From assembly GCA_021811805.1 (NCBI GenBank), contig JAKAQA010000006.1, positions 1 to 33,528 of the forward strand: DNA of 33,528 bases, read 5' to 3'. Origin of the DNA: a bacterium. Its GTDB lineage: Bacteria > SZUA-79 > Acidulodesulfobacterales > Acidulodesulfobacteraceae. The position numbers and the translations under genes were made by a program. This document shows, in pieces, positions 1,496-10,328 of the stretch (positions are counted from its first letter, which is position 1; every line of letters begins with the position of its first letter). The notes beneath the pieces are model-generated. The model made no database searches. It was not told the DNA's origin and saw only the letters and a list, made by a program, of their open reading frames with translations.

Positions 1496-3586
1496 ATGAT
1501 AAATCTTTATTTTAAAAATTTCAATTTTAATCTGTCCTGCTATATAGGAACTATGATTTATTCCGAACCGGATAAAGAAGATTTTATAAAAATGGCCGCT
1601 GAATTTAAAAATGATTATAAATTATATTCTTTTAAAGCCTTAAAAGCTCATTTTAATTTTAACGGCGGAATAGCATCTCCGCTAAGCTTTCCTTTTAAAG
1701 ATATTGCAGGGTTTTTATCCGCAAAGTTCGTCATACTTGAGGACGTAGAAATAAAATGCCTGTCGGATGCCGTGTTATTAAATGCCGTTTGCGATTTTGT
1801 TTTAAACAGCCCTGTTGTTTTCTGCTTAAAAACCGATAAAGGTTACGGCATCGACGATGTTTTTTCTTTATATTTAAATTACGCTAAAAATTCCCCCGAA
1901 TATATGATTTTGGATGTTTACAAAACTCGCTTAACATTTCTGGCGGAAACCAGAATGATATATAGCGGAAAATATGCGGGCTATACATCTTCCATGGCTA
2001 ACTTTATACTTAAAATTAACGCTTTAGGGTTTTATATTAAAAAAGCTCCTTCGGAAAATTACGGCATACCGTATCTGTTTTTTTCCGACGATAAAAAATT
2101 CGAAATTAAAATAGCGGCTGTTCCTTTTAGAACAAATACAGCTTTAAACGGCGAATTTATTTCAAAAAAGGCTGTATCTATAAATACTGCTTTAACGGAT
2201 ATTTATTTTTATCCGGATGAATTAATTAACAAAATTAAAATATTTCTCGGAACTGCCCGCAATATGCGAAAATCCATTAATTGCAGATACAATAAAACCT
2301 CGGCAGATAAAACGGCTTTCGACAAAATAAGCGTTATTCAGGATATATCTGTAAAAGAAATATTCTCGCCTCAACTCATTATTGCGGGAGCGGGTTCCGG
2401 AAAGACTAAAATTATCGTGAATAAATTTTTATACCTTTTAAATTTTATTCCTTCGGATTCTATAATAATTTTAACATTTACGAATAATGCCGCTGCCGAG
2501 ATAAAAAATAGAATTGCATCCTGCCTGCGGTTAAAAGGGATTAAAAATAATTTTATAGCCGGTAATGCTTTAAATATTTCGACATATCACAGTTTCTTTT
2601 ATTCCATAGTAAAAGAATTTTATAAAGAACTGGGATTAAAATCCCCGCCTTTAATTAACGAAAACAGCGGTAATTTCGGCGAAACCGCCGACGGAGCTTT
2701 TATATCTTACGGCGAAATTATTTTATGCGTTATAGAACTTTTCAGAAATAACGATATCGTATTAGAAATCGCTTCGCGTTTCAAATATATACTTATAGAC
2801 GAATATCAGGATTTAGATTTTTTGAGCGACTATATCATTAAAAAAATCGATTTTGCAAGGGGCGCAGTCATGTATGCCGGCGACGACGACCAGGCAATAT
2901 ACGGATTTAACGGCGGAGATTCTTTTAACATATTATTCTTCGACCTATTTTTCCCTTCCGGAAAAGTCTTTGTCCTGCAAAGCAATTTCAGGTCGCATTA
3001 TAAAATCGTCGATTTCTGCAATTCGATAATAAATAAGATTGCTTTCAGGTATCCTAAAATATTAACTGCTAAAACGGGAAACGCCGAACCTGCTGCGCGT
3101 GCGAGTAAAAGTAACCCCGTTAATGTTTTAAGATTTAAAAATAAAAATGCGGAAGAGGAATTTATTAAAAAAATGTTTAATAAACTTATTTCGCAAGGAA
3201 AATCCGCCGCTATTTTGGCAAGGACGCAAAGGGAAGCCGAGCATTTTGAAACTATTATCGGGGGAATTTATCCCGATAATAATAGTTCTTCTCGTAACGG
3301 CGGCGGATTTATAGGAACTATACACCGGAGCAAAGGGCTTGAATTCGACGCAGTGTTTATAGCAAACGTAACTCAGGGTAATATACCGCATTTAAAAAGC
3401 GTATCGACGGCAAATAGGTCGCGGGATGTTTTAAGGCATCCTTTCATCGAATTTTTAGGGAGGCATGCCGAACTTAAAACCGGCCGAAACGATGAAGCTA
3501 AACTATTTTATGTTGCGGCTTCGAGAGCAAAAGAAATAATTTTTATTACTTATTCGGGAGAAATGTCGGAATTTTTGAAAGATTAA
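1496..3586 (+). CDS. UvrD/Rep-like superfamily 1 DNA helicase with ~280 aa N-terminal extension
   Basis: Walker A AGAGSGKT, ILTFTNNAAAEI, Walker B LIDEYQDLD, AGDDDQAIYGFNGG, QSNFRS, GTIHRSKGLEFDAVFI and LFYVAASRAK are SF1A helicase motifs. Start uncertain (TATAAT abuts the listed ATG; alternative ATG near 1553). Confidence 0.88.
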   Translation: MINLYFKNFNFNLSCYIGTMIYSEPDKEDFIKMAAEFKNDYKLYSFKALKAHFNFNGGIASPLSFPFKDIAGFLSAKFVILEDVEIKCLSDAVLLNAVCDFVLNSPVVFCLKTDKGYGIDDVFSLYLNYAKNSPEYMILDVYKTRLTFLAETRMIYSGKYAGYTSSMANFILKINALGFYIKKAPSENYGIPYLFFSDDKKFEIKIAAVPFRTNTALNGEFISKKAVSINTALTDIYFYPDELINKIKIFLGTARNMRKSINCRYNKTSADKTAFDKISVIQDISVKEIFSPQLIIAGAGSGKTKIIVNKFLYLLNFIPSDSIIILTFTNNAAAEIKNRIASCLRLKGIKNNFIAGNALNISTYHSFFYSIVKEFYKELGLKSPPLINENSGNFGETADGAFISYGEIILCVIELFRNNDIVLEIASRFKYILIDEYQDLDFLSDYIIKKIDFARGAVMYAGDDDQAIYGFNGGDSFNILFFDLFFPSGKVFVLQSNFRSHYKIVDFCNSIINKIAFRYPKILTAKTGNAEPAARASKSNPVNVLRFKNKNAEEEFIKKMFNKLISQGKSAAILARTQREAEHFETIIGGIYPDNNSSSRNGGGFIGTIHRSKGLEFDAVFIANVTQGNIPHLKSVSTANRSRDVLRHPFIEFLGRHAELKTGRNDEAKLFYVAASRAKEIIFITYSGEMSEFLKD

Positions 3587-3591
3587 AACCG

Positions 3592-4626
3592 TTAAAACTG
3601 TTTAAGGATATCTAAGTTTCCCTGATAAAGCAGCCTGAGGTCGTTAATATTATATTTCAGCATAACGATTCTGTCGAATCCCATTCCGAATGCAAAACCT
3701 TTATACTCTTTGGGATCGATATCTGCATATTTAAAAACGTTAGGGTGAACCATTCCGCATGGAATCACTTCTATCCATCCCGTATTCTTACATACTCCGC
3801 AACCCTTTCCTCCGCAAAATACGCACTCTATATCTAAATCTAATCCCGGTTCTACAAAAGGATAAAAAGCCGGCCTGAAGCGGGTTTTCCTTGCGCCGAT
3901 AAGATGCCGCACCGTTTCTTCCAGTATGCCTTTTAAATCGGAAAGTTTTACGTTTTTATCGACAAAAAGCCCTTCCATTTGATTAAACATAAAAAGGTGG
4001 GTCGCATCTACCGCTTCATACCTGTAACATCTGCCGGGCGCAATTACCCTCAGGGGAAGTTGTTTTTTTTCAAGGGTTCTTGCCTGAACGCTTGAAGTAT
4101 GTGTTCTCGGAACCATTCCGTTAATAAGATAAAAAGTATCCCAGACGTCTCTTGCGGGATGGTCAGCCGGTATATTAAGGGCATCAAAATTATAATAGGC
4201 AGTTTCAATTTCAGGGCCTTCGACTATCTCGAAACCCATCGAAGTAAAAAAATCGGATGCTTCTTCTAAAACTGCGGTTATAGGATGCTTATGCCTTATT
4301 TCTATATAATTTCCCGGAATAGTCAAATCGATACCGCGTCCGCTTAAAAACTTGCCGCGTTCGGCAATTGAAAGTTCATCTTTTTTACTGTTGTAAATGT
4401 TCTCTATCCGGTTTTTGACTTCGTTGGATTTAGAGCCTATAATTTTCTTTTCTTCCGGCGAGTATAGATGAATATTGTGCAATATAGCGGCGATTTTACT
4501 TTTTTTGCCGGCAAAATCACGGAACCGATTCTCTAACTCGTCTAAATTTTTTGAAGAATTAAGAAGCTTTTCGGCATCTTCCGAAATTTTATTTATTTCG
4601 CTTATAATTTCAGGTTCACTATTCAT
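3592..4626 (-). CDS. pheS: Phenylalanine--tRNA ligase alpha subunit
   Basis: Class II aaRS motifs: HPARDVWDTFYL, RTHTSSVQARTLE, GRCYRYEAVDATHLFMFNQMEGLFVD, GFAFGMGFDRIVMLKY. C-terminal CxxC...CxxC insertion. Confidence 0.95.
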   Translation of the reverse strand: MNSEPEIISEINKISEDAEKLLNSSKNLDELENRFRDFAGKKSKIAAILHNIHLYSPEEKKIIGSKSNEVKNRIENIYNSKKDELSIAERGKFLSGRGIDLTIPGNYIEIRHKHPITAVLEEASDFFTSMGFEIVEGPEIETAYYNFDALNIPADHPARDVWDTFYLINGMVPRTHTSSVQARTLEKKQLPLRVIAPGRCYRYEAVDATHLFMFNQMEGLFVDKNVKLSDLKGILEETVRHLIGARKTRFRPAFYPFVEPGLDLDIECVFCGGKGCGVCKNTGWIEVIPCGMVHPNVFKYADIDPKEYKGFAFGMGFDRIVMLKYNINDLRLLYQGNLDILKQF

Positions 4627-4688
4627 ATCGATATATTATTAATCTTTTTATATAAATTTTCAAGCGTGAATTTGCCTTATCTATAAAA

Positions 4689-4722
4689 AACCCGTAATTT
4701 AAAATATTTTAAATTACGGGTT
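4689..4722 (-). terminator. Rho-independent terminator of the SBP-doxDA-dsrE-like operon
   Basis: Perfect 34-nt palindrome AACCCGTAATTTAAAATATTTTAAATTACGGGTT followed on the minus strand by a T-rich tract (GGGTTTTTTATAG), ~40 nt after the stop of the 4764-5336 gene. Confidence 0.85.
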
Positions 4723-4763
4723 AATATATCGGCAAACCGTTTTTCTGTTTTTAAATGGAATAA

Positions 4764-5336
4764 TCAGGGTTTTAAAAAGGCATATCCTTCGGATTCCCTT
4801 AAAATTATTTCACCCTGCGCGGACGGAACTATCTTTACAAACGGATAAAGTTTGGAAACGGGAATATGCAGCTCATAGAGGCTGTTTGCGCACTGAGCAA
4901 GCTCTACGCCCATTTTTTTTAATTTCAATAAGGCTTTTTCACGGCCGTTTCCTTTGAAATAAATATGGGTTCCGGCGCTGAATGCCATAAGTTCAATTTT
5001 AATATGGCCTTTAAGCCTCGGGTCGTTTAATGCGTTAGTAATATTATCTATAATTTTGTTCATCCTGACTTTACTGTTTGCGTCTATTACGTAAATTGCA
5101 TGATAAATTTTTCCGGGAACAGCGTGGGCGCCCATAGTATATTTTGGCGCTGTAGTTGAATTAGGATAATATTTTCTTACTCCCTTAACGTTATGCCAAC
5201 CGTACCATCCTGAAGGGTGAACGCCGGGCGCAACCCCTCTCCATCCTGCAAATGCATTGGAAGCTAACGAAAATACTATCGCCGAAAACACTAAAACAGA
5301 AATGCTTAAAAGCAGTTTAATACTTTTGTTTTTCAT
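4764..5336 (-). CDS. Exported DsrE-family protein
   Basis: N-terminal signal peptide (MKNKSIKLLLSISVLVFSAIVFSLASNAFAG). Mature part resembles the DsrE/COG1416 fold: KIYHAIYVID...KIDNITNALNDP...IKIELMAFSAGTHIYF...GVELAQCANSL...VKIVPSAQGEIILRESEGYAFLKP, with conserved-type Cys. SD AGGAG upstream of ATG. Confidence 0.75.
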   Translation of the reverse strand: MKNKSIKLLLSISVLVFSAIVFSLASNAFAGWRGVAPGVHPSGWYGWHNVKGVRKYYPNSTTAPKYTMGAHAVPGKIYHAIYVIDANSKVRMNKIIDNITNALNDPRLKGHIKIELMAFSAGTHIYFKGNGREKALLKLKKMGVELAQCANSLYELHIPVSKLYPFVKIVPSAQGEIILRESEGYAFLKP

Positions 5337-5395
5337 TTCTCTTTTCTCCTTTTAAATTTAAATTAAATTTAGTCTATTAAACTTAAACTTTAGAA

Positions 5396-6448
5396 CTATT
5401 TTTTATAAGTAAAATTTTCGGTAAACTCTTGCCCGCTTACGTCTGTAAGTATAAGTTTATAATTTCCGGGCTTTAAAGCTCCGGCAGTTTTTTTATTAAT
5501 GGGCAGGCTTATATCCGCTTTTGCTCCAAGCTGCATTACCATACTGTATTTATTTATGAAAGCCCTGTTTACATATCTGTTATGTATAACCGCCATCGGC
5601 AGTTTTTCGATAGCTTTTTGATTCCATATATAAACCGGTTTTCCGGCGGAATCGTTAATCCGGGCTTTTATAATATAAGCGAAAGCGGCTCCGCTGCCGC
5701 CCGTTCTATAAACTACAAAATTCAGATTGCCGTTCGCAATTTTGGCGCCTGAAACAGACACCGCTAATTTCTTCCCGAAATTATGAAGATTTCCCCAAAC
5801 TCCGCCCTGAAACAGCTGGTTGGTACCCATAGTTACCGCAATCGCAAATATGGCAAATACCGCATTCCATGCTTTAAAACCTTTTCCCCATAACGGGCCG
5901 TTTCCTATTAATCTATAAATAAATGAGTTTGCGGTTTTCGGCCAGATATTTCTTACTATATCGTCGAAAGACCACGTGCTGCCCGCAAAAAGTATTAACA
6001 AGCCGACGGTCATTTCTACCGAGCCGACCTGCCATTCGTCGAGGCAGGTAGCGCCTAGCCAACCTGAGCCGAATAAAATTCCGAAAGCGAGCGCAACCGC
6101 GCCTAATCCGCCGAGCCTTGAAAAAAGGCCGAATATTAATGACAATCCGACGAGAAATTCTATTACGGTAAACACGTTGAGGAATACTGCCAGTGCCTGC
6201 GGATGCAGGATTAAAAGATGGATTAAGCTTCCTACGCCCATGAAATTGCTGGCATGAGGCAGAAATGTATTAAACTTGTGGCCTACCCATAAAGGCGAAT
6301 TCGGCTGAAGCTTTCCGCTTGCAAGAACTACCCTCCTCCATGCGGCCGAAAAGAACATCCAGCCTAAAACTAATCTTAACGGGATGGCCGCATAACCGAG
6401 AGAGCGGTATATCGAACTGTCTTCGATTTTATTTGGGTTTTTAGACAT
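5396..6448 (-). CDS. doxDA: Thiosulfate:quinone oxidoreductase, fused DoxD (DoxX-like membrane) and DoxA domains
   Basis: N-terminal multi-TM DoxD/DoxX region (LRLVLGWMFFSAAWRRVVL...EFLVGLSLIFGLFSRLGGLGAVAL...) followed by a soluble DoxA-like domain (FVVYRTGGSGAAFAYIIKARINDSAGKPVYIWN...PGNYKLILTDVSG). Confidence 0.8.
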   Translation of the reverse strand: MSKNPNKIEDSSIYRSLGYAAIPLRLVLGWMFFSAAWRRVVLASGKLQPNSPLWVGHKFNTFLPHASNFMGVGSLIHLLILHPQALAVFLNVFTVIEFLVGLSLIFGLFSRLGGLGAVALAFGILFGSGWLGATCLDEWQVGSVEMTVGLLILFAGSTWSFDDIVRNIWPKTANSFIYRLIGNGPLWGKGFKAWNAVFAIFAIAVTMGTNQLFQGGVWGNLHNFGKKLAVSVSGAKIANGNLNFVVYRTGGSGAAFAYIIKARINDSAGKPVYIWNQKAIEKLPMAVIHNRYVNRAFINKYSMVMQLGAKADISLPINKKTAGALKPGNYKLILTDVSGQEFTENFTYKK

Positions 6449-6492
6449 ATATATTGCCCCCTATTATAAAATATAATTTATTATTAAATTAA

Positions 6493-6531
6493 GGCGCCGG
6501 GCAAATAAATTTTAGCGTCTTGCCCGACGCC
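6493..6531 (-). promoter_or_regulatory. Intercistronic stem-loop between SBP gene and doxDA
   Basis: Arms GGCGCCGGGCAA (6493-6504) and TTGCCCGACGCC (6520-6531) pair over 12 positions with one mismatch, 15-nt loop, and no strong T-tract on the minus strand. Confidence 0.55.
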
Positions 6532-6554
6532 TGTTATTATAAATTTATTTATAA

Positions 6555-7541
6555 TTAAGGAGCGGTGAATCCGAAACGCTCGAATATTTTTAAACATTCT
6601 TTGCTTTTCAAGAAACTCAGCCATTCCTGGGCGGCTTTAGTATTGGGAGCGCCTTTAACCATGGCGCCGCCGTATAAAGCAACCGTATTTTCTTTAGCGG
6701 GAATATTGATTTCGGTAATAGGATTTCCTATCATTTCCTGAAATTTAGCCTCAGACTGCCATGTTACGCCGGCATCCGATTTCTTCTGCATAATCCTCAT
6801 AGGGGTTTGGCGATGATGTATATGGGTTAAATAAACTCTGCCAGACTTTACTCCATAATTATAGACGGACTGCTCCAATTTTCTTCCGCCCGCTTTAACA
6901 AGCGAAGCCTTAATCTGGTGGGCTATGCCTTCAAATGCGGGATTAGGCATAGACAGTTTTAATTTAGGATTGCCGAGGCTTTTTAATCCGGTAATATGAT
7001 ACGGATTCCCTTTATACGTCATAATAGCAAGGTCGTTTTTTCCGTAGGTGACTATCTTTCCGGTCGTCATCCCTATTTTATCGGTAAAATGAAGTTTTTT
7101 TGCACCGGCCATATAGATATCCGGCGAAAAATGCATGGTCAGATTTCCGAGGGTAACGGCGTTATTGTGCTTCCAGACTCTTACCAGCATGCCCGGAGGA
7201 ATCGTTATATAAAATACATGCTTAACATTTGGATATTTTTTCATAAATGCTTTTACGACATGGGGCAGCACGAAAAATATATTGCCTCCGATAAATATCA
7301 CTAAACTTGACTTGGGATGCAAAGTAACGGCAGTAACGTTTCCGTGAAAATCCGGATTGTTATCGACCGTCATAGGACTGAAATGATACCCTTGATTTAC
7401 CGACGGGTCTCCGTTTTTGCACCATGGCGGATATACGCCTTTAATACCAAGAGCAAAAGAAGTTTCGGACATAGAAGCGGTTAAAACAAAAACTAATGCA
7501 AAGCTTAGCGCCAGCATTCTAAACAAGCGAAATGAACGCAT
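6555..7541 (-). CDS. Periplasmic substrate-binding protein (type 2 PBP, ModA-like)
   Basis: Signal peptide MRSFRLFRMLALSFALVFVLTASMSETSFA. Type-2 PBP-like pattern: VVKAFMKKYPNVKHVFYITIPPGML, PNPAFEGIAHQIKASLVKAGG, VTWQSEAKFQEMI, KGAPNTKAAQEWLSFLKSKECLKIFERFGFTAP. SD GGAGG upstream. No ABC permease or ATPase adjacent. Confidence 0.7.
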   Translation of the reverse strand: MRSFRLFRMLALSFALVFVLTASMSETSFALGIKGVYPPWCKNGDPSVNQGYHFSPMTVDNNPDFHGNVTAVTLHPKSSLVIFIGGNIFFVLPHVVKAFMKKYPNVKHVFYITIPPGMLVRVWKHNNAVTLGNLTMHFSPDIYMAGAKKLHFTDKIGMTTGKIVTYGKNDLAIMTYKGNPYHITGLKSLGNPKLKLSMPNPAFEGIAHQIKASLVKAGGRKLEQSVYNYGVKSGRVYLTHIHHRQTPMRIMQKKSDAGVTWQSEAKFQEMIGNPITEINIPAKENTVALYGGAMVKGAPNTKAAQEWLSFLKSKECLKIFERFGFTAP

Positions 7542-7683: not shown

Positions 7684-7771
7684 TGGTGCCGAGGGCCGGA
7701 ATCGAACCGGCACGGAACTAAGTTCCGAGGGATTTTAAGTCCCTTGCGTCTACCACTTCCGCCACCCCGGC
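7684..7771 (-). tRNA. tRNA-Leu (anticodon TAA), CCA encoded
   Basis: Reverse complement GCCGGGGTGGCGGAAGTGGTAGACGCAAGGGACTTAAAATCCCTCGGAACTTAGTTCCGTGCCGGTTCGATTCCGGCCCTCGGCACCA: acceptor stem, long variable arm, T-loop GGTTCGATTCC, anticodon loop CTTAAAA. Confidence 0.95.
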
Positions 7772-7858: not shown

Positions 7859-9331
<1,473 letters not shown>

Positions 9332-9363
9332 TTACCGTATTATATAAAATTAATTAAGTAGGG

Positions 9364-10203
9364 TTATAATTTATGGTGCTCTTTAATATGGCACTCGTAA
9401 GAAGCTTTTTCTTCTTCTTTATAAAATTTGAGCCTGTTCATAAGATTATCGAAATCGACGAGATGCCCGTCAAAATCTGGACCGTCGACGCAGGCGAATT
9501 TCGTTTTTTTATCTACAAGAACCCTGCATGCGCCGCACATTCCGGTTCCGTCTATCATGATGGGATTTAAACTTACCGTCGTTTTAATAGATTTTTCTCT
9601 TGTAAGGTCGCTGACCGCTTTCATCATAATCACCGGCCCTATCGCAATAACCCTTTCTATCTGTATTTTCTTATCGTAAATAAGCTCTCTCAAAACATCG
9701 GTAACTATTCCTTTCGAGCCGTAACTTCCGTCGTTTGTGGCTACAAGAACTTCGTTGCTCGCCGACCTCATCTCGTCTTCCATTAAAAGCAGTCCTTTGC
9801 TTCTCGCTCCTATTATCGAAATAACATTATTTCCGGCTGATTTCATAGCTTTGGCTATAGGATATATTGCGGCGATACCGAAACCTCCCCCTACGCATAC
9901 GACGGTTCCGAATTTTTCTATTTCCGTAGGAACGCCGAGCGGACCCACCACGTCGGCTAAGCTGTCTCCCACGTTCAGTTCGCTGAGCAAATGCGTTGTT
10001 TTTCCGAGCGTTTGAACCAGTATTGTAACCGTTTTATCGTTTTTGTCGGAATTTGCTATAGTAATGGGAACCCTTTCTCCGTTTTTATTAACCCTTAAAA
10101 TTATAAACTGGCCGGGCAGGGCTTTTAACGCAACATCAGGAGCGGATATATTATATAAATTTATTCCTTCCCCCAGATTTTTTTTACCGACGATTTCATA
10201 CAT
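9364..10203 (-). CDS. nfnA: Sulfide dehydrogenase / dihydroorotate dehydrogenase-like FAD/NAD-binding subunit, NfnA (NfnS, SudB-like)
   Basis: Ferredoxin-NADP reductase-like fold (ERVPITIANSDK; VVCVGGGFGIAAIYPIAKAM), C-terminal [2Fe-2S] cysteine set GTGMCGACRV...KFACVDGPDFDGHLVDF. 279 aa, immediately upstream of nfnB. Confidence 0.85.
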   Translation of the reverse strand: MYEIVGKKNLGEGINLYNISAPDVALKALPGQFIILRVNKNGERVPITIANSDKNDKTVTILVQTLGKTTHLLSELNVGDSLADVVGPLGVPTEIEKFGTVVCVGGGFGIAAIYPIAKAMKSAGNNVISIIGARSKGLLLMEDEMRSASNEVLVATNDGSYGSKGIVTDVLRELIYDKKIQIERVIAIGPVIMMKAVSDLTREKSIKTTVSLNPIMIDGTGMCGACRVLVDKKTKFACVDGPDFDGHLVDFDNLMNRLKFYKEEEKASYECHIKEHHKL

Positions 10204-10253: not shown

Positions 10254-10328
10254 TGGAGGCGGCACTCGGAATTGAACCGAGGTATAGAGGTTTTGCAGAC
10301 CTCTGCCTTACCGCTTGGCTATGCCGCC
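10254..10328 (-). tRNA. tRNA-Cys (anticodon GCA), CCA encoded
   Basis: Reverse complement GGCGGCATAGCCAAGCGGTAAGGCAGAGGTCTGCAAAACCTCTATACCTCGGTTCAATTCCGAGTGCCGCCTCCA folds as a cloverleaf; anticodon loop CTGCAAA. Confidence 0.95.

Follow-up and report, generated by a model that had tools for sequence, protein, structure and literature searches.

Which reaction could be shared by an exported binding protein, a fused thiosulfate:quinone oxidoreductase and an exported DsrE-like protein whose genes stand together with no ABC transporter gene beside them? The question is raised by three genes on contig C18 of the genome of an uncultivated acid-mine bacterium of the Ca. Acidulodesulfobacterales type (G000; 1.6 Mb, 84% complete), analyzed here over a stretch of 33,528 nucleotides that we call the window. 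From comparisons of sequences and gene neighborhoods, we propose, with a probability of roughly 60%, that the trio encodes a periplasmic thiosulfate-oxidizing unit in which DoxDA would be the quinone outlet.

The locus and its three proteins

The initial annotation had described three same-strand genes closed by one strong terminator, and this arrangement was borne out (Table 1). Each gene is preceded by a Shine-Dalgarno-like sequence. The stem-loop between sbp and doxDA has a z of -3.1 in the window; in the corresponding gaps of loci L039 to L046, its position is kept in most relatives with largely different sequences, z ranging from -3.1 to -5.6 in five genomes, reaching -3.3 in L046 and being weaker in L043 and L044 (-1.7 and -1.8). 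The three genes therefore need not be equally expressed, and the stem-loop may set a high SBP-to-DoxDA ratio. Upstream of the trio lies a tRNA-Leu (taa) gene (7684-7771, minus), and the window also carries a tRNA-Cys (gca) gene (10254-10328, minus) and a gene for a flavoprotein resembling GltA-type NADPH-dependent glutamate synthase (7859-10203, minus; 605 bits), which adjoins a gene judged by eye to be ferredoxin-NADP reductase-like; the two could be an Nfn/Sud-type pair.

Table 1. Features of the trio, with positions in the window
Feature	Position	Strand	Description
sbp	6555..7541	minus	328 aa, exported orphan type 2 periplasmic binding protein
Stem-loop between sbp and doxDA	6493..6532	minus	Possible RNA processing or attenuation element
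doxDA	5396..6448	minus	350 aa, fused thiosulfate:quinone oxidoreductase, DoxD membrane part plus DoxA
dsrE-like	4764..5336	minus	190 aa, exported DsrE-like protein, Cys149 in AQCANSL
Intrinsic terminator-like hairpin after the dsrE-like gene	4689..4722	minus	15 pairs, then a T-rich tail

The fusion of DoxD and DoxA called in the initial annotation is likewise real, both domains exceeding their Pfam gathering scores within one chain (DoxD, 140.8 bits against 22.7, E 5e-41; DoxA, 93.5 bits against 27, E 1e-26). Against the NCBIfam equivalog models, which describe separate DoxD and DoxA subunits, the protein scores 108.7 and 18.5 bits, with a cut-off of 300.

The binding protein (SBP) matches Pfam SBP_bac_11 (E 2.5e-33) and reaches only 25 bits against the ModA model TIGR01256, under the cut-off of 62.5. 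No ABC transporter gene adjoins sbp at the locus, and the description of SBP as an orphan stood. G000 encodes just two SBP_bac_11 proteins, and the second, of the ModA type, lies on contig C162 beside a ModB-like permease; the window SBP is therefore not the receptor of the mod system, and we rejected its reading as a molybdate receptor. The motifs PPW, GGNxF, PPG, NPxxEG and IHHRQ are invariant in the family across phyla, and the IHHRQ signature could plausibly hold an oxyanion at low pH. The family lacks both a conserved cysteine and an evident redox cofactor, which counts against a thiosulfate-oxidizing unit. The AlphaFold models of SBP and of the DsrE-like protein are poor (pLDDT 33 and 40, respectively).

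The DsrE-like protein scores 14.7 bits against Pfam DsrE (PF02635), under the gathering score of 22.7, another point against the unit that we propose. The family call is right, albeit weak in Pfam, since the protein matches MTH1491 among PDB sequences (1l1s; E 8e-9) and relatives lie over the Pfam cut-off, such as a 42%-identical Hymenobacter protein (28.7 bits). Moreover, Cys149 is invariant in 18 aligned DsrE proteins.

Export signals were judged by hydropathy, charge and an A-x-A-like site. Both SBP and the DsrE-like protein begin with a classical signal sequence (ending in ...SFA/LG and ...AFA/GW, respectively) that lacks a lipobox cysteine and is kept in nine relatives; by inspection, the signal of the DsrE-like protein is retained in all relatives. 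The export of a DsrE protein, presented in the initial annotation as unusual, thus stood, while its unusualness did not: exported DsrE proteins recur beside this SBP family and in sox clusters.

A conserved trio and a widespread pair

Every one of the 13 genomes found to have this DoxDA has the complete trio; these genomes represent two genera of the Ca. Acidulodesulfobacterales type and comprise nine of the first 41 genomes and four more from the second genus. Among the first 41, the nine with SBP are also the nine with DoxDA, dsrE is adjacent in each of them (9/9), and the trio is intact in G005 (L043) and G021 (L045) despite a largely different order of flanking genes. In a species-level genome collection, 11 of the 12 loci found have the trio; the relatives include Candidatus Acididesulfobacter diazotrophicus AP1 (L067), whose genome comes from acid mine drainage and belongs to the order Ca. 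Acidulodesulfobacterales (PMC6776010). At the 12th locus (L069), sbp and dsrE are directly adjacent in the absence of doxDA, and a SoxA/TsdA-type cytochrome c gene is divergently transcribed.

Relatives of SBP extend to Alpha-, Beta- and Gammaproteobacteria and Bacteroidota, at 37 to 59% identity. A plasmid search retrieved relatives of 37 to 49% identity in Gluconobacter, Acetobacter, Komagataeibacter, Bradyrhizobium, Bosea, Methylobacterium, Paraburkholderia, Burkholderia, Hymenobacter and Spirosoma, and at each of the 15 plasmid loci that were examined (about 12 once near-identical ones were removed), the direct neighbor is a DsrE-family or a Tat-exported protein. Two of the Tat-exported neighbors were compared with NF052225, the model of thiosulfate dehydrogenase (TSD), and both passed (371 and 395 bits; cut-off 300). 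SBP also stands beside TSD or an exported DsrE in G173, G715 and G503, and in the G425 family, an exported DsrE gene lies directly upstream of sbp at 9/9 loci. At control ModA-type loci, DsrE or TSD occurs within 1.5 kb in 0 of 19 cases. The association of SBP with TSD or an exported DsrE is thus near-obligate. Two loci count against the proposed unit: at L158 (SBP 39% identical), no DsrE was found within 1.5 kb, and at L157, the adjoining DsrE and SBP have no visible signal sequences and are seemingly not exported.

The third partner is exchangeable: where it is not DoxDA, it is a cytochrome c, either of the SoxA/TsdA type or multihaem. Directly downstream of sbp in the G425 family are DoxDA (4/9) or a cytochrome with four CxxCH motifs (4/9; L203 to L206), no outlet being identified within 1.5 kb at L199. 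Cytochromes beside the pair score over the cut-off of PF21342 (SoxA/TsdA) at L069, L090, L091, L093, L095, L096, L098 and L099. The order dsrE-sbp-doxDA forms one set in G425, G715, G503 and relatives, and the class of G173 includes three genomes with dsrE-sbp-doxDA and one with tsd-sbp-doxDA. This distribution suggests that SBP and an exported sulfur protein form a widespread core fitting different electron outlets.

Several other observations concern this family. Another binding protein, shorter at about 256 aa and likewise without an ABC transporter beside it, is encoded beside or near the first at L091, L093, L097, L099, L101 and L108. A distant SBP clade (L159 to L182; 33 to 37%) mostly lacks IHHR, having HHRE in the three proteins read, and DsrE lies nearby at some of its loci (L169 and L175). 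The small plasmid pLAtc2 of A. caldus SM-1 (L107) encodes, near a porin gene, a DsrE-family protein that begins with a signal-like stretch.

TSD, DsrE and a candidate thiosulfate reaction

A tsd-sbp-doxDA cluster, induced by sulfur, has been published for Acidithiobacillus ferrooxidans (PMC2754497, PMC2621215, PMC6335251). The species has two tsd-sbp-doxDA(-rhd) sets (AFE_0042-0046 and AFE_0047-0050), and a similar organization was noted in Gluconobacter (PMC2621215, PMC2754497, PMC6335251); one of the sets was found to be expressed more strongly on sulfur than on iron (PMC2754497). We also find the tsd-sbp-doxDA order in Gluconobacter, Acetobacter and G173, the orthology to AFE_0042-0044 resting on these papers, the NF052225 model and gene order. 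In the window, SBP is adjacent to DoxDA together with an exported DsrE in place of TSD, and the trio is thus a DsrE-bearing variant of this cluster type. NF052225 matches neither the window DsrE-like protein nor anything else in G000.

The TSD profile aligns with that of DsrE across the conserved cysteine and the C terminus (hhalign probability 95.0%, P 3.6e-8), compared with at most 1.7% in 120 column shuffles and less than 1% for unrelated profiles against TSD. A bridging protein of 215 aa with a twin-arginine start (L111) matches both profiles. The similarity spans only about 55 columns, which counts against the proposed unit; the proteobacterial DsrE subfamily alone (A8) reaches 33% against TSD, and the TSD profile has no match in the PDB. 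We consider this good, but not structural, evidence that TSD and DsrE have in common a C-terminal, cysteine-bearing part.

TSD of A. ferrooxidans (AFE_0042) forms tetrathionate, works best at pH 2.5 and does not reduce ubiquinone or cytochrome c from horse (PMC6335251). In Metallosphaera, DsrE3A and TusA are reported to react with tetrathionate to give Cys-S-thiosulfonates (PMC4175335). In the thiosulfate-oxidizing unit that we propose, thiosulfate would be held by SBP and/or would react at Cys149 of the DsrE-like protein to give a protein S-thiosulfonate. Tetrathionate would then be released by a second thiosulfate, or the sulfur would be passed on, and two electrons would reach the quinone pool through the membrane protein DoxDA. 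The substrate, the product, the role of the cysteine, the physical contact between the proteins and the direction of electron flow are those that we infer for this unit, the comparison pointing to thiosulfate and tetrathionate as ligands rather than to sulfite or molybdate. The extracytoplasmic sulfur relay envisaged in the initial annotation is right in outline and partly supported. Of the three findings that the annotation named as contradicting it, two were looked for and did not turn up, the trio being conserved and SBP being separate from the mod system, and the third, a missing export signal in the DsrE-like protein, was not seen on inspection either; the relay's ligand and its use of sulfane sulfur have to be inferred as well.

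Alternatives and known systems

It is also conceivable, if unlikely, that DoxDA is a complete thiosulfate:quinone oxidoreductase for which SBP merely concentrates thiosulfate at the membrane, the DsrE-like protein protecting against, or recycling, polysulfide or tetrathionate. Indeed, DoxDA proteins 39 to 42% identical to that of the window are encoded without SBP or DsrE beside them (L071 to L073), which also counts against our reading, and the Acidianus enzyme was described with its DoxD and DoxA subunits only (PMC6335251). However, SBP and DsrE or TSD persist where a cytochrome replaces DoxDA (L069, L203 to L206 and many plasmid loci), and since the two occur together without DoxDA, they seem to be the core and not an accessory. 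TSD without the SBP, as seen at L102 to L106, speaks against the proposed unit.

Still less likely, we believe, is a thiosulfate or sulfane-sulfur sensor or delivery relay of the sort raised in the initial annotation. The cysteine of the DsrE-like protein would then carry sulfane sulfur to another acceptor, or report it, with no role in oxidation. Classical DsrE proteins are sulfur carriers, and exported DsrE paralogues occur in Sox clusters, where SoxY is a sulfur carrier; yet the trio encodes no receptor or downstream sulfur acceptor, and the partners in relatives are electron carriers. That SBP serves as receptor for an ABC importer of molybdate, tungstate or sulfate with genes at another locus, its proximity to doxDA being incidental, is very improbable: it would suit the SBP_bac_11 fold and the weak ModA similarity, but not the dedicated Mod-type SBP and permease of G000, the persistence of the trio and of the cross-phylum SBP-DsrE/TSD pairing, or a score far under the ModA cut-off combined with a distinct IHHRQ signature.

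The A. ferrooxidans papers offer no explanation for the acceptor of the heme-free TSD or for the role of the sulfur-induced SBP. The comparison provides a testable answer, namely, that SBP is the partner of the exported DsrE or TSD protein and that the outlet is either DoxDA or a cytochrome, and it hints at a function of DsrE proteins beyond the cytoplasm. More tentatively, and with the odds somewhat against it, these systems might represent a third kind of periplasmic thiosulfate oxidase beside Sox and TsdA, built from a DsrE-fold cysteine protein and a binding-protein-fold subunit, with TSD as one branch and interchangeable outlets (DoxDA or cytochromes c), which would have joined DoxDA more than once. 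We found no description of an exported DsrE/SBP pair in the open-access literature; what is new here is the DsrE version of the cluster together with its surprising parts, the TSD-DsrE link and the exchangeable outlet.

Like the A. ferrooxidans cluster, the window has an exported orphan binding protein directly beside a fused DoxDA, and an exported sulfur protein. Unlike it, the window has neither TSD nor rhodanese and carries the exported DsrE-like protein after doxDA instead. The window DoxDA is only 27 to 30% identical to the SBP-linked proteobacterial DoxDA proteins examined and groups with the SBP-less ones, split from the proteobacterial proteins with 100/100 support in the DoxDA tree. 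The window DsrE falls with the SBP-linked DsrE of Bacteroidota and with exported DsrE encoded in sox clusters, separate from the proteobacterial ones. Taken with the different gene order, these two tree positions make it likely that the trio was assembled with DoxDA independently of the proteobacterial clusters; one gain plus a loss is possible, as the DoxDA tree is unrooted. Compared with the Acidianus thiosulfate:quinone oxidoreductase, the window protein has the same two domains over their Pfam cut-offs, but in a single chain that falls under the cut-offs of the separate-subunit models. Similarly, the DsrE-like protein shares the C-terminal domain and the family cysteine with the DsrE/DsrF family and MTH1491, but it is exported, has an extra N-terminal stretch, scores under the Pfam gathering score and lacks a DsrF or DsrH partner.

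Another known system is the partial Sox system of Ca. Acidulodesulfobacterales (PMC6776010), which concerns periplasmic thiosulfate oxidation in the same order and has exported DsrE paralogues within its gene cluster; that study reports partial sox genes, and its main text mentions neither doxD nor TQO. In sister genomes, exported DsrE paralogues lie within sox clusters (SoxB 630 bits, SoxA 140 bits). Three to four stand among soxA and soxB in each cluster at L047, L049, L050 and L053, the last having soxY- and soxZ-like genes as well, and some of these clusters encode YeeE/YedE and an exported rhodanese-like protein. At L194, from another class, exported DsrE-like genes (2368-6067 and 9137-9586) adjoin soxZ-, soxA- and soxB-like genes. 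No SoxB was found in the trio carriers G000, G003, G004, G005 and G007, and within genus g1, whose genomes are incomplete, the trio and SoxB are nearly exclusive, both occurring only in G009; this exclusion is not significant (Fisher p 0.12). For the Ca. Acidulodesulfobacterales genomes in which soxB was not detected, the trio is a likely route of thiosulfate oxidation in acid mine drainage.
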